A stretch of 36,233 bases of DNA from assembly GCF_017306585.1 (NCBI RefSeq), contig NZ_JAFKIC010000161.1, positions 1 through 36,233 on the forward strand. The letters are read 5' to 3'. Shown here piece after piece: positions 1-7,221 of the stretch. Numbering within the stretch: position 1 is the stretch's first letter; the number at the start of each line of letters is the position of its first letter. Under the pieces are notes generated by a model that was not told where the DNA came from, made no database searches, and saw nothing but the letters and a program-made list of their open reading frames with translations. The DNA is from Mesorhizobium sp. (lineage in GTDB: Bacteria; Pseudomonadota; Alphaproteobacteria; Rhizobiales; Rhizobiaceae). The position numbers and the translations under genes are program-made.

Positions 1-122
1 GCAGCCGCTTCGCCGCCCGACGTCCACCAATGCAGCATCTGCACTTCCTTGACGTCCGCGGCATGCGCCGAGAACGCAAAGCTCGTCGCAAGAGCCGTTC
101 CGATAAGCAGTTTGCGCAACAT
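1..122 (-). CDS. Sugar ABC transporter substrate-binding protein, N-terminal fragment
   Basis: Only the first 40 codons lie in the window; the gene continues past the left edge. The visible protein opens with a Sec signal peptide (MLRKLLIGTALATSFAFSAHA, cut after the second AHA) followed by ADVKEVQMLHWWTSGGEAA. The HWWTSGGEA stretch is typical of family 1 carbohydrate-binding periplasmic proteins, especially glucose/mannose-type importers of rhizobia. A strong ribosome site (GGGAGG) lies a few bases before the ATG at 122. The gene is on the same strand as, and 58 bp downstream of, the aldehyde dehydrogenase, so it is probably the distal part of the LacI-headed operon and the first gene of an ABC importer lying outside the window. 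The substrate cannot be read from this fragment. Confidence 0.8.
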   Translation of the reverse strand, partial: MLRKLLIGTALATSFAFSAHAADVKEVQMLHWWTSGGEAA

Positions 123-151
123 GTAGTACCTCCCTTGTTGCAGTCATATAA

Positions 152-169
152 CCGGCGGATGTCCGCCGG
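152..169 (-). other. Intercistronic GC hairpin
   Basis: CCGGCGGA and TCCGCCGG form a perfect 8-bp inverted repeat with a 2-base centre between the aldehyde dehydrogenase stop and the binding-protein start. No U tract follows on either strand, so a simple intrinsic terminator is unlikely. Hairpins at this place often protect or separately dose the mRNA of a binding protein; that role is inferred here. Confidence 0.6.
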
Positions 170-180
170 GGTCTCCCAAC

Positions 181-1383
181 TCAGCCGACCCACCACCCGG
201 TGCGCTGGCCGCGATGAAACTGGATTGTCTTTTCCTCGGTATAATCCTCGACGGCGCGTTTGCCGAGTTCGCGTCCAAGACCGGATTGCTTGTAGCCGCC
301 GAAAGGCAGTTCCGGATAACCTTCCATGAACGTGTTCACCCAGACCGTCCCCGAACGCACGCCCCGCGCCACCGACATGCAGGTGTCGATGCTGGCGCTC
401 CACACGCCTGCCGACAGACCATAGGGCGTGTTGTTGGCGATGTGCAACGCCTTTTCAATCGTTTCAAAAGTCAGCACCGACAGCACCGGACCAAACACTT
501 CCTCGCGCGCGATGGCCATGTCCTGGGTGACGCCACGTAAGATGGTGGGATCGAGATATTGTCCGGCAGTCGAAGCCAATTGCTTGCCGCCGCTGTAGAC
601 AGTACTGCCTATACTTGCCGCCTCCGCCACGTAGCCGGTCACCTTGGCCATGTGGTCGGCCGAGATCATCGCGCCGACCTTGGTCCCGACATCGAGCGGA
701 TCGCCTACCGTTACCTTCGAGGTCAGCGCCTTCACGGCGGCCAGGAAATCATCGGCGATCGCCTCATGCACGATCAGCCGGCTGCCGGCATTGCAGCATT
801 CGCCGGCGTTGAAGAAGCCGCCAAAGACGGCGGCGTCGGCGGCAGCCTTCAAGTCGGCGTCGGGGAAAACGATCTGGCCGTTCTTGCCGCCCAGTTCCAT
901 CGAGACTTTCTTGAGCGTGTCCGACGCAGCCGCCATGGTCATCTTGCCGACGCGCGTCGAGCCGGTGAAGGACACCATCTCGACCAGCGGATGGCTGACC
1001 ATCGGCGCGCCGACATCGGCGCCGAGGCCGGCCAGGATGTTGACGACGCCTGCCGGCAGGCCGGCGTCGAGCAGGATGTCGCCGAGAACGAAGGTCGAGG
1101 CCGAGGTCATCTCGCTCGGCTTGACCACCGCCGTGCAGCCGGCGGCGAGCGCGAAGGGCAGTTTCTGGCTGACGATCAGGAACGGAAAATTCCACGGCGT
1201 GATGATCGAGACGACGCCGATCGGCTCGCGCAACACCACGCCCAGCATGGAATCGCCGAGATTGGCGTAGCTTTCGCCATGCAGCGTGCGGGCAAGCGAG
1301 GCGGCATAGCGCCAGATGTCGACCGCGCCGCCGACGCCTCGGCCGGCATGGAGATGTTGAGGGGGGCGTTCATGGCGCGTCAC
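181..1383 (-). pseudogene. Aldehyde dehydrogenase lacking its N-terminal ~100 residues
   Basis: The 400-codon frame is clearly an NAD(P)-dependent aldehyde dehydrogenase: it has the TPWNFP segment (about residues 62-67), VKPSE (87-91), the general-base Glu163 in ELGGK, the nucleophile Cys197 in FFNAGECC, and EEVFGPV near the C-terminus. Family members are about 480-500 residues, and here the first ~100 (early Rossmann strands) are missing. The frame can only open at GTG 1383, giving an unrelated start (MTRHERPPQH). In another frame, ATG 1373 begins MNAPLNISMPAEA, which looks like a genuine protein N-terminus. It meets the dehydrogenase frame near 1335-1345, out of phase. The simplest reading is an internal deletion plus frameshift. 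The gene lies 6-16 bp after the enoyl-CoA hydratase stop, so it belongs to the operon. A functional short enzyme from GTG 1383 is possible but unlikely. Confidence 0.75.
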
Positions 1384-1389
1384 TTTTCC

Positions 1390-2166
1390 CTATGATCTTG
1401 AAAATGCTGGCTTCTGCTTGGCCTTGAAAGCGCCGACGCCAGCCTTGAGATCGCCGGTCAGCGCGATGAAGCCGCTGGCCAGCGCCTCGGTGGCGGCAGC
1501 GCTTTCCTCGCCTTCGGCCACGGCAATCATCAACTTGGCGGCTTCGGTCGCGAGCGGGCCGCGCTCGGCGATTTTTGCCGCCCAGGCCCTCGCTTCGTCC
1601 AGCGCCTTGCCGGTCTCGACGATCCGGTCGACAAGACCAACGGCCAGCGCGTCAGCTGCGAGGAAAATCTCGCCGCCGAGAGCCATGCGCCGTACGATCT
1701 GCGCGCCGAAGCGACGCACGGCGCGCTGCGTGCCCGACCAGCCGGGAACGACGCCGATCGAGGTTTCGGGAAAGCCGAGCTTGACCTGGGTTTCGGCGAC
1801 GCGGAGATCGCAGGCCGCGGCCAGTTCCAGCCCGCCGCCCAGCGCATGGCCGGACAGCACCGCGATGGTGGGCTGGCGCAGGCGGGCCAGCCGGTCGAAG
1901 ACGCGATGGCCGTAGCGCACCCATTGCACCTGGAAATCGGCCGCACTCATGGCGCCCCACGCCTCGACATCGCCGCCGGCGCAGAAGCCCTTGCCTTCGC
2001 CGCGGATGAGCACGACGCGCACGCCTTCGGCGAGTTCCGCCTCGTCGAGCGCTGCCTCGAGCGCGCGCAGCATCGGAATGTCGAGCGCGTTGAATTTTTC
2101 CGGCCGGCGCAGCGTGACGATGCCGATGGCGCCGTCCTGTTCGAAGGTGACGAGCCGCTCAGCCAT
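1390..2166 (-). CDS. Enoyl-CoA hydratase/isomerase family protein
   Basis: Crotonase-fold acyl-CoA enzyme of 258 residues, the usual length. The first oxyanion-hole segment is GKGFCAGGD (about 58-66) and the second is GHALGGGLELA (106-116). Both acidic residues of true hydratases are present: Glu114 in GGGLEL and Glu134 in GFPETSIG, followed by VVPGWSGTQR. Start chosen at ATG 2166 rather than an earlier in-frame codon at 2193, because GGAGG lies about 7 bases upstream and the ATG overlaps the CoA-transferase stop by 8 bases (ATGGCTGA), typical of coupled translation. It probably hydrates or isomerises the CoA thioester made by the neighbouring transferase; the acyl group is unknown. Confidence 0.9.
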   Translation of the reverse strand: MAERLVTFEQDGAIGIVTLRRPEKFNALDIPMLRALEAALDEAELAEGVRVVLIRGEGKGFCAGGDVEAWGAMSAADFQVQWVRYGHRVFDRLARLRQPTIAVLSGHALGGGLELAAACDLRVAETQVKLGFPETSIGVVPGWSGTQRAVRRFGAQIVRRMALGGEIFLAADALAVGLVDRIVETGKALDEARAWAAKIAERGPLATEAAKLMIAVAEGEESAAATEALASGFIALTGDLKAGVGAFKAKQKPAFSRS

Positions 2167-5828: not shown

Positions 5829-5862
5829 CCAGATGTCTCCTCCTGATTTTTGCATGAATTAT

Positions 5863-5874
5863 TGGAACGTTCTA
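5863..5874. promoter_or_regulatory. LacI operator 1 over the leftward promoter
   Basis: TGGAACGTTCTA, extended to ATTGGAACGTTCTAAT at 5861-5876, is a near-perfect palindrome with the central CG step typical of LacI-family operators. It overlaps the proposed -10 element of the lacI operon, so binding would block transcription of the repressor and its downstream genes. Confidence 0.8.
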
Positions 5875-5898
5875 ATCATCGCTCCAATCGAGAGTCAA
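5870..5898 (-). promoter_or_regulatory. Promoter of the lacI-led operon
   Basis: On the minus strand TTGACT (5893-5898) is followed after 17 bases by TTAGAA (5870-5875), a reasonable housekeeping promoter. The -10 lies inside operator 1. Predicted from spacing only. Confidence 0.5.
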
Positions 5899-6017
5899 TC
5901 CGGATTTTTTCTCGACTCGGAAAATTGATAGCCTGGCACTATGAGCCTTGCTTTCAAACAGGTAGCGCGCTGCGATGCAGCAATTTTCTGGAAATAACCC
6001 AGGAATCTTAAAGGTTC

Positions 6018-6046
6018 TTGATTTATTGGAACGTTCCATTTATAGC
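6018..6046 (+). promoter_or_regulatory. Promoter of the DUF993 gene
   Basis: TTGATT (6018-6023) and TATAGC (6041-6046) are separated by 17 bases, about 20 bases ahead of the DUF993 start. The spacer is almost filled by operator 2, an arrangement that strongly suggests repression by the neighbouring LacI protein. Confidence 0.55.
6027..6038. promoter_or_regulatory. LacI operator 2 over the rightward promoter
   Basis: TGGAACGTTCCA is a perfect 12-bp palindrome and matches operator 1 in 11 of 12 positions. It lies between the -35 and -10 elements of the DUF993 gene. The two operators are 164 bp apart centre to centre, which would permit DNA looping by a LacI-type tetramer, if this protein forms one. 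Confidence 0.85.
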
Positions 6047-6066
6047 CGCTTACAATGGAGAGATCG

Positions 6067-7221
6067 ATGGATATTGCCTTGCCTGGCGAGGGTGGCCGCA
6101 GCACCCGTTACACGCTTGTCGGACAGCCGGTGCATCCGGTCGCCGGCGCGCGGTTCTCGCGCATCGCCTATGCCGCCGCGCATGTGGTCGCCGATCCCCT
6201 CGGCATGACCGATCCATGGTCGCGCCCGGTTATCGACTGGGACAAGACGATGGCGTTCCGTCATCATCTTTGGCGGCTCGGTTTCCGCATTGCCGAGGCG
6301 ATGGATACTTCGCAGCGCGGCATGGGTTTCGACTGGGCGAGCGCCAGGGAACTTATCCGGCGTTCGGTCGCCGAGGCGCGAACCGTGCCGGGCGCCGATC
6401 TCGCCTCGGGCGCGGGCACCGACCACCTGGCGCCGGCGTCGGCCAGAACGCTTGAAGACGTGATCGCCGCCTATGAAGAGCAGTTCGCCTTCATCGAAGG
6501 GCTGGGCGGCAAGGCGATCATGATGGCCAGCCGCGCATTGGCGGCAGTCGCGCAGGGACCGGACGACTACGCCATCGTCTACGACCGCATTCTGCGGCAG
6601 GCCTCCGGCAAGGTCATCCTGCATTGGCTGGGCGATATGTTCGACCCTGCCTTGAAGGGTTATTGGGGCAGCGACAATTTCGAGGCCGCGCTCGACACGG
6701 TGGTCGCCATCATCGAGCGCCACGCGGATAAGGTCGAAGGCATCAAGATATCGCTGCTCGACGCCGCCAAGGAGGTTGCGTTGCGCGATCGGCTGCCGGA
6801 CGGCGTGGTCATGTTCACCGGCGACGACTTCAACTATCCCGAACTGATCGCCGGCGACGGCAACCGGCATTCGCATGCGCTGCTCGGCATTTTCGATGCC
6901 ATCGCGCCGGCCGCCAACGCGGCGCTGGCCAAGCTCGCCGCCGGCGACCGTGCCGGCTTTGACGCGCTGATGGCGCCAACCATGCCGCTGTCGCGCAAGA
7001 TTTTCGAGGCGCCGACCGAGTACTACAAGGCCGGCATCGTCTTCATGGCGTGGCTCAATGGCCATCAGGATCATTTCTCGATGGTCGGCGGCATGCAGTC
7101 GGCGCGCGGCATCCGCCACTATGCCGACGTCTTTCGCCTCGCCGACCAGGCGGGATTGCTGGCCGATCCCGGCCTTGCCGTATCGCGGATGAAAAGTCTG
7201 TGTGCCGTGGCGGGCGGCTGA
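6067..7221 (+). CDS. DUF993 family protein (dihydrodipicolinate synthase-like fold)
   Basis: A 384-residue protein I recognise as DUF993, a family usually labelled dihydrodipicolinate synthase-like. The likely Schiff-base lysine is Lys227 in [11 protein letters not shown], where classical members have a GIK motif. Other active-site pieces differ: the usual GTTGE segment may correspond to SGAGTD (114-119), and the usual paired tyrosines are replaced by [10 protein letters not shown]. This suggests an aldolase- or lyase-like reaction on a different substrate. Start at ATG 6067 (GGAG at 6057-6060), with ATG 6055 as an alternative. It is divergent from lacI and shares its operator sequence, so it belongs to the same regulon as the dehydrogenase, CoA-transferase and hydratase. 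Reaction unknown. Confidence 0.8.

Follow-up and report, generated by a model that had tools for sequence, protein, structure and literature searches.

1,5-Anhydrofructose (AF), 1,5-anhydromannitol (AM) and 1,5-anhydroglucitol (AG) are natural glucose-like ethers, and AG is a marker in human blood. In phenylacetate degradation (oxepin-CoA hydrolase) and in the degradation of tetrahydrofurfuryl alcohol, a cyclic ether or enol ether is handled after alcohol oxidation, as a CoA thioester. That tetrahydrofurfuryl alcohol is degraded is stated in PMC2842291. For 3,6-anhydro-L-galactose (AHG), excerpts of PMC9706016 give a pathway in which AHG dehydrogenase and a cycloisomerase lead to 2-keto-3-deoxygalactonate. 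For AF, a 2025 review (PMC12441222), citing Kuhn et al. 2006, describes reduction to AM followed by a hydroxylation of AM at C1 that yields mannose, with the hydroxylase left unidentified. The same review states that a probiotic would require an enzyme that metabolises AG aerobically.

Here we analysed a gene cluster of a Mesorhizobium soil bacterium, with a single regulator, for which a preliminary description had proposed a new sugar or polyol pathway. Its observation was partly confirmed and its interpretation partly supported. Through the cluster an unusual sugar resembling glucose probably enters ordinary metabolism, and 1,5-anhydro sugars are likely what the operon degrades.

Layout and regulation of the locus

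The window, that is the whole analysed stretch of 36,233 nucleotides, is an entire contig, and the contig end falls inside a sugar-binding-protein gene. Gene calls and profile matches recovered every gene that had been named, at the following coordinates:

1..122, minus strand: first 40 codons (5' end) of the gene for a CUT1-type sugar-binding protein, truncated at the contig edge (frame read)
181..1383, minus strand: aldehyde dehydrogenase, N-terminally truncated, 400 aa (PF00171 positions 89-461 of 461)
1390..2193, minus strand: enoyl-CoA hydratase/crotonase, probable start 2166 (both presumed catalytic glutamates present)
2159..3760, minus strand: fused (alpha+beta) CoA-transferase of the YdiF type, starting with TTG (EQGAVGG contains the catalytic E; match to 2ahu)
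3757..4773, minus strand: Gfo/Idh oxidoreductase closely related to 1,5-anhydro-D-fructose reductase (AFR) (2glx 473 bits, 4koa 461 bits)
4770..5855, minus strand: LacI-family repressor, probable start 5828 (sequence match)
5862..5874, plus strand: operator-like palindrome TTGGAACGTTCTA, upstream of lacI (motif comparison)
6026..6038, plus strand: operator-like palindrome TTGGAACGTTCCA, upstream of DUF993 (motif comparison)
6055..7221, plus strand: DUF993 protein, DHDPS-superfamily barrel, probable start 6067 (PF06187)

A sugar importer gene had been said to follow. The window holds the start of the binding-protein gene, and the remainder lies outside it on another contig of this genome, C149 (locus L191), where the cluster resumes after a gap of ~33 bp, as judged by alignment to one relative. 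This second part encodes a sugar ABC importer, two GMC dehydrogenases, an SDR and a Dabb protein.

The 7.09-Mb genome contains exactly two copies of the operator TTGGAACGTTCYA, and they lie at this locus, in the divergent promoter between lacI and DUF993. The genome-wide search returned no other exact copy of the 13-base operator, on which ground we set aside a wider LacI regulon, and one near-match of 16 bases was observed on contig C169. The two palindromes speak for the proposed LacI control of two divergent units, and the locus is probably LacI-controlled.

Of the 11 Mesorhizobium loci in which the aldehyde dehydrogenase gene is seen, 8 encode a protein of 503-504 aa. Compared with each of four aligned Mesorhizobium relatives, the window gene lacks 319 bp, an out-of-frame loss near positions 1323-1334, and the missing piece was not found in the rest of the genome. 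The regions of the catalytic Cys and Glu are retained, and the Cys is kept in 50/50 proteins. For the proposed aldehyde oxidation the gene is thus present but damaged, and the enzyme of the window strain is probably non-functional.

The Gfo/Idh protein and its substrate

The scores of the Gfo/Idh protein against 2glx and 4koa compare with 109 bits for the next family. Both structures are Sinorhizobium AFRs (EC 1.1.1.292). Judged by these scores, the window protein is a close relative of the NADPH-dependent AFRs and much nearer to them than to other Gfo/Idh enzymes. The known inositol route, with which the cluster might have coincided, does not fit (136 bits against TIGR04380, the IolG equivalog, cut-off 355), and neither does levoglucosan dehydrogenase (82 bits against NF052479, cut-off 650).

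The preliminary description had let this protein oxidise a sugar-like alcohol. Since it groups with a reductase and not with alcohol oxidases, that step probably runs in reverse, and the oxidations are more likely carried out by the two GMC enzymes outside the window. The claim that no named pathway applies needs correction in one part, the conversion of AF to AM, which is named. In the 2025 review the enzyme after AFR is still without an identity.

If the published route to mannose applied here, the remaining genes of the locus would serve something else. We consider this improbable. The CoA enzymes, the GMC enzymes and mostly the importer lie in the same gene run as AFR, under a common operator, and on reading through the gene order of type I loci we noticed nothing that resembled a P450 gene. 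In the literature we found neither a substrate, intermediate or mutant phenotype for genes of the locus, AFR homologues excepted, nor a report of steps beyond AFR shown by these genes.

Conservation and sister forms

In a set of 199 related genomes, every one of the 35 AFR genes with at least 60% identity was linked to both DUF993 and the CoA-transferase, with starts of AFR and DUF993 less than 4 kb apart and AFR and CoA-transferase less than 3 kb apart (one of the DUF993 genes, in genome G089, is a contig-edge fragment). CoA-transferase rows of 39-44% identity were excluded before counting. The linkage is far beyond chance. Because the contig scan covered the best 80 of 580 relatives, the survey is weighted towards close kin. 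The neighbourhood survey that had been suggested therefore shows a conserved arrangement: one catabolic locus joins sugar redox steps to CoA chemistry, and the cluster is genuine, conserved and dedicated, though not entirely anonymous. The pairing of AFR and DUF993 recurs with a second DUF993 lineage in three loci on long branches. Genome G073 carries two AFR homologues of lower identity (48% and 42%), and neither of them has DUF993 or the transferase nearby. A second Gfo pair of that genome belongs to a different cluster, with a four-carbon-acid-kinase-like protein, a class II aldolase and a hydantoinase, and was set aside.

Ten fetched loci carry the core of CoA-transferase, hydratase and aldehyde dehydrogenase without an adjoining DUF993. 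Five of these ten genomes have no DUF993 match at all, and the other five carry DUF993 elsewhere than beside the core. This sister form also has the importer and GMC enzymes, with AFR and DUF993 not adjoining. Contrary to the preliminary description, the pathway is therefore not built on DUF993. We give hardly any credence to the original order of steps either, in which the Gfo/Idh protein oxidises a sugar alcohol, DUF993 cleaves the product, and aldehyde oxidation, CoA transfer and hydration follow: its gene set is correct, but Gfo/Idh groups with an NADPH reductase, two GMC dehydrogenases are on hand for oxidation, and the core occurs without adjoining AFR and DUF993.

Among the cores without AFR, 7/8 have a levoglucosan-dehydrogenase-like Gfo, and the SDR is absent from those seven. 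One representative of the Gfo scored 300 against NF052479, below the cut-off of 650. The occurrence of the same core with this Gfo in place of AFR would suit a true substrate other than an anhydro sugar, with the operon degrading some other derivative of a hexose, such as an osone, a glucoside or a sugar that is branched or methylated, and the AF activity of AFR being incidental. Kuhn and colleagues are also said to have found that AFR reduces 2-keto-aldoses. Such a substrate is somewhat unlikely. AFR sits in the S. meliloti cluster, and PMC12441222 reports rhizobial growth on AF via a specific reductase.

The CUT1 importer was found in most loci and is missing from seven. The S. meliloti binding protein, SMc04396 by gene order, has been reported as dextrin-induced (excerpt of PMC4960864). 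The two GMC families are akin to FAD glucose/fructose dehydrogenases and to choline dehydrogenase, respectively.

Within the fetched flanks, a glycerate kinase was counted in 6/60 loci vs 0/10 (p 0.58). As the flanks did not reach the far end in most clusters, we fetched the far ends for 33 of the 35 clusters (all except the window's own and that of G089) and repeated it. Glycerate kinase then occurred at the far end of 16/33 AFR/DUF993 clusters and 0/8 clusters without AFR/DUF993, with a Fisher p of 0.014 that overstates independence because the clusters share descent. The 17/33 clusters that lack the gene include both same-genus ones, and one of the 17 ends at a contig edge. For the window's own cluster, no glycerate kinase was seen on C149.

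DUF993 and the CoA enzymes

The DUF993 protein matches PF06187 with 603.7 bits (cut-off 24) over positions 1-381 of 382, and has the TIM-barrel fold of the DHDPS-type class I aldolases. The lysine proposed as active-site residue is Lys231 when numbered from 6055 and Lys227 when numbered from 6067, the better start. A weak profile alignment places it opposite the lysine that forms the Schiff base in dihydrodipicolinate synthases, and it is kept in 88/88 DUF993 proteins examined. Thr85 and His190 are invariant as well. His190, within an HWLG motif in 88/88, takes the position of the catalytic Tyr133 of the E. coli enzyme, a placement that is approximate because the alignment is weak. As this histidine replaces the pyruvate-binding tyrosine of DHDPS and KDG aldolases, a pyruvate donor is doubtful. 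None of the papers searched mentions DUF993. The type II DUF993 loci pointed towards organic acids without yielding a reaction. In one locus a Rieske oxygenase gene adjoins a type III DUF993.

The fused CoA-transferase matches 2ahu (YdiF) over residues 3-521 (E 4e-109) including both subunit domains, and the catalytic glutamate motif E.G..GG is present in 51/51 proteins. For the hydratase, a strict pattern found both catalytic glutamates in 47/48 proteins, all but the one of locus L049. Among solved structures, the closest to the window hydratase is 3-hydroxypropionyl-CoA dehydratase (5zai, 173 bits vs 142 for the next). This relationship would suit an early action of DUF993, splitting a keto-sugar that the redox enzymes supply into a pair of C3 fragments, of which one goes to glycerate and the other, as a C3 acid, passes through CoA-transferase and hydratase along a 3-hydroxypropionate/acrylate-like branch to acetyl-CoA. 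The lost tyrosine of DUF993 points the same way, and in Acinetobacter the gene run after DUF993 contains a PEP carboxylase and a glycerate kinase of an unrelated family, which suit PEP-forming and acetyl-CoA-forming halves. We nevertheless regard an early cleavage as unlikely. Chemically, a retro-aldol reaction on a 1,5-anhydro-ring ketone yields one ether-linked product and not two. The CoA-transferase and hydratase persist in the ten loci without adjoining DUF993, including the five genomes without any match in the search for DUF993, and an incidental reading of the loci revealed no malonate-semialdehyde enzyme.

Proposed pathway

We tentatively propose that the LacI-repressed operon imports a glucose-like 1,5-anhydro sugar and degrades it. 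Candidate substrates are AF, AM and/or AG. Sequence supports import by a CUT1 system, an AFR-type reductase from AF to AM, a local operator and glycerate as a frequent end product, to which the glycerate kinase in the Acinetobacter gene run also points. A 2-ketone would be made or recycled by the sugar-type GMC enzyme, perhaps with the SDR, and reduced to AM by AFR. The choline-dehydrogenase-like GMC enzyme and the aldehyde dehydrogenase may then oxidise C6, giving 2,6-anhydro-D-mannonate, from which the CoA-transferase would form the thioester. In the thioester the alpha carbon bearing the ring oxygen becomes acidic, and the hydratase could expel the beta-hydroxyl and add water to the resulting enol ether, which would open the ring to 2-keto-3-deoxy-D-gluconate (KDG). 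KDG would arise as its CoA ester, with the CoA then returned. Acting as a Schiff-base aldolase, DUF993 would split KDG into a pyruvate-like C3 unit and glyceraldehyde; the latter would be converted to glycerate, which glycerate kinase would then phosphorylate. In forms that lack DUF993, an ordinary KDG kinase and KDPG aldolase would take its place. By its stereochemistry, D-KDG is reached from AM and not from AG.

Hydration of an enol-ether-CoA by this hydratase is suggested by analogy, and the scheme explains the levoglucosan-dehydrogenase-like Gfo and the SDR-free cores only loosely. The full chemistry, with activation by a recycling CoA-transferase, ring opening by an enoyl-CoA hydratase and a new Schiff-base aldolase with histidine for tyrosine, is more doubtful than the proposal as a whole. 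If true, it would give DUF993 its first function.

Comparison with known systems

Compared to the DHDPS/KDG aldolase superfamily, DUF993 has the invariant histidine at the Tyr133 position, nearly 100 extra residues and 10-16% identity. SMc04132 (PDB 4dnh) is a DUF993 protein of unknown function; by tag number in a paper table the oxidoreductase SMc04133 adjoins it, as in type II loci, without AFR and the CoA enzymes. The AHG pathway resembles the proposed scheme in that an anhydro sugar becomes an acid whose ether ring is opened to a 2-keto-3-deoxy acid. Its ring opener is an enolase-superfamily cycloisomerase, whereas we propose a CoA-transferase and an enoyl-CoA hydratase, and the two systems share no sequence membership. 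The oxepin-CoA and tetrahydrofurfuryl alcohol systems act on compounds that are not sugars and with different enzymes, which leaves an analogy only. Published AF catabolism differs as well: beyond AM it uses no CoA, GMC or DUF993 enzymes. Among the closest known systems is the Sinorhizobium AFR locus. In S. meliloti Ak57 the cluster contains the 4koa protein, with one difference across 332 residues as printed, and the same neighbours as in the window cluster. Within a single, widely conserved operon, AFR stands together with an importer, with redox and CoA enzymes and with DUF993, a family whose structure has been solved, so that the breakdown of AF, AM and AG becomes directly testable in a laboratory strain of S. 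meliloti.

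Cluster layout and identity of the Gfo/Idh protein

The Gfo/Idh protein of the window scored 473 bits to 2glx and 461 bits to 4koa, both 1,5-anhydro-D-fructose reductases (AFR); the next-best family reached 109 bits. The source genome comprises 7.09 Mb in 385 contigs and the window is the complete contig C206 of 36,233 bp, which carries the following features:

window, minus strand: LacI, Gfo/Idh (AFR-like), fused CoA-transferase, enoyl-CoA hydratase, aldehyde dehydrogenase, sugar-binding protein (first 40 codons)
window, plus strand, divergent from the minus-strand genes: DUF993
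window 7202-9366 and 10867-10941 (by eye): GDP-mannose 4,6-dehydratase-like and GDP-fucose-synthase-like after DUF993, then further genes and tRNA-Val

The operon continues on contig C149 with the binding protein, two permeases, an ATPase, a sugar-type GMC enzyme, an SDR, a choline-dehydrogenase-like GMC, a Dabb protein and a weak MFS match. The sequence of a relative places the gap between the two contigs at ~33 bp. Among the best 80 of 580 relatives the DUF993 protein is closest to Mesorhizobium homologues (84-90% identity). Judged by eye, the genes to the right of the cluster seemed unrelated; those at 7202-9366 and 10867-10941 are apparently unconnected with it.

Compared with L041, L044, L045 and L052, loci of four Mesorhizobium relatives, the aldehyde dehydrogenase gene of the window lacks 319 bp (a length calculated from the alignment ends), out of frame, at 1323-1334, where up to 10 bp overlap at the junction. 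No copy of the missing piece was found elsewhere in the genome; its best match was its own flank and the rest were short (68-83%). Across the 11 Mesorhizobium loci showing the gene the protein has 503-504 aa in eight, a longer frame in two and 451 aa in L043. Barring an assembly error, the out-of-frame loss suggests that the window enzyme is probably inactive or truncated.

The corresponding protein in the cluster of S. meliloti Ak57 differs from 4koa, as printed, at one of 332 residues. Counting by gene order from SMc04400, which we take to be the AFR of Kuhn et al. (2006), the predicted tags are SMc04401 for LacI, SMc04396 for the binding protein, SMc04392 for the sugar GMC, SMc04391 for the SDR and SMc04390 for the second GMC. 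The descriptions printed in excerpts of PMC4560400 (a regulator), PMC4960864 and PMC12542648 fit these tags. An excerpted table of PMC12542648, which deals with the PHB regulator PhaR, lists SMc04390-04392 jointly with SMc04132/SMc04133 in module 6 of S. meliloti; by gene order the former would belong to the AFR/DUF993 locus. SMc04132 is a type II-like DUF993 and SMc04133 an oxidoreductase.

A putative operator

The sequence TTGGAACGTTCYA occurs exactly twice in the window, both times within the divergent promoter, and is the putative operator that the LacI protein of the cluster is predicted to bind. With two mismatches allowed, the search again hit these two places, each on both strands (4 matches against 0.71 expected; 2 of 100 shuffles gave as many). 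Genome-wide, the exact 13-mer was found only at these two sites and the reversed-pattern control had no match. A 16-base form with one mismatch added one site, C169 3575-3590 (L154). Of the 57 loci having both LacI and transferase, 48 carry an exact 12-base copy close to LacI, AFR, transferase or DUF993; it is absent from the other nine, five of them Shinella.

Conservation of the linkage

Within the family, 67 of 199 genomes encode DUF993. In a sample of 299 genomes from the phylum 24 do (7 of the 9 listed members of the same genus), and among 14 named controls none does. A search for AFR homologues at E up to 1e-60 gave 45 genes in 43 of the 199 family genomes. For every one of the 35 AFR genes with at least 60% identity, the start of DUF993 lies less than 4 kb and that of the CoA-transferase less than 3 kb from the AFR start. 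At 52-58% identity (n=8) DUF993 lay 12-15 kb off on the same contig in seven cases and the transferase within 1.6 kb in all eight. The two homologues at 48% and 42%, both from genome G073, had neither nearby.

AFR, DUF993 and transferase occur together in 47 of 116 compared loci, accompanied by the hydratase in 47, the aldehyde dehydrogenase in 44 and the binding protein in 39, where some gaps are contig or fetch ends. The importer is missing from the Brucella/Ochrobactrum loci and from the Acinetobacter locus L116 beyond what such ends explain.

Three loci (L121, L122, L128) carry AFR through DUF993 and LacI all on one strand. A maximum-likelihood phylogeny built from 96 DUF993 sequences places them outside the main AFR-linked clade, which suggests that the pairing probably had more than one origin, although their long branch weakens this reading.

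Core without AFR and DUF993, and other DUF993 contexts

For twelve of the 62 CoA-transferase genes with at least 62% identity, the surrounding 16 kb of the contig contained no DUF993. One of them, in genome G095, has AFR beside the transferase; ten of the other 11 loci were fetched. All ten contain transferase, hydratase, aldehyde dehydrogenase and an exact operator, and nine the binding protein (L132 stops short of its position). Five of their genomes had no DUF993 match anywhere and five had DUF993 elsewhere.

In L145-L150 and L189, which lack AFR, DUF993 and SDR, a Gfo/Idh gene most similar to levoglucosan dehydrogenase (300 bits for one representative, against a cut-off of 650) lies just past the second GMC gene or past a Dabb or LacI gene next to that. 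The distal parts of the operons were also compared. Of the eight read without AFR/DUF993, seven have this Gfo/Idh and no SDR; L151, the remaining one, has the SDR and lacks the Gfo/Idh. The 33 with AFR/DUF993 all have the SDR and never this Gfo/Idh. AFR, DUF993 and SDR therefore look like an exchangeable module added onto a common core.

DUF993 was also encountered in two other settings. The second context comprises 28 loci (L081, L084-L088, L090, L092-L094, L096-L098, L100-L105, L107-L110, L113-L115, L117, L118) with another Gfo/Idh, whose closest solved structure is the uncharacterised 3oqb, a sugar-phosphate-isomerase-like protein in all except L118, often a divergent MR/MLE-like protein, TctC or NMT1-type importers and a TetR regulator. 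Nine type III loci (L037, L038, L079, L082, L112, L120, L125, L127, L139) from Paracoccus, Sagittula and Enterobacteriaceae hold an acyl-CoA dehydrogenase, a choline-dehydrogenase-like GMC, in some an ETF, and in all nine the isomerase-like protein. The three enterobacterial DUF993s fall within the side of the tree holding most AFR-linked ones, and type III loci may represent a variant.

Proposed pathway products and mechanism

Both GMC genes are present in all 33 distal parts of AFR/DUF993 clusters (33 of 35 fetched) and glycerate kinase in 16; among the 17 lacking the kinase, L165 is truncated where its contig stops. None of the eight distal parts without AFR/DUF993 has the kinase (Fisher p 0.014 against 16/33, kinship ignored). 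It is present in the S. meliloti cluster and absent from the window strain's own. Acinetobacter sp. ANC 4173 (L116, 851-21167) carries the same regulon. There, the genes after DUF993 encode a sugar MFS transporter, PEP carboxylase and a glycerate kinase from another, unrelated family; a LamB porin gene adjoins the LacI gene and operator copies occur at four places. This gene content suggests how the products enter metabolism. Given the kinases in both settings, we read one product of DUF993's pathway as a three-carbon aldehyde or acid on the way to glycerate.

The CoA-transferase and hydratase most likely act upstream of DUF993, because both occur with and without it. In the scheme we infer, the 1,5-anhydro ring would be oxidised at C6 and the thioester would render C5 acidic; once the hydratase had removed the C4 hydroxyl and added water to the enol ether, the ring would open to a 2-keto-3-deoxy acid. 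The observations behind the scheme are of homology, gene linkage, active-site residues and operator-like sites. By Fischer bookkeeping 1,5-anhydromannitol gives the configuration of D-2-keto-3-deoxygluconate but 1,5-anhydroglucitol that of L-KDGal, which would account for the manno configuration of the reductase's product.

The preliminary description had proposed an undescribed sugar or polyol pathway; the regulon is genuine and conserved, is centred on a known enzyme, AFR, and is apparently undescribed. It is no new kind of system and offers a useful handle on an open step and on DUF993, a family of unknown function. In AHG catabolism, according to an excerpt of PMC9706016, an anhydro acid is likewise opened to a 2-keto-3-deoxy acid, but by a different enzyme.
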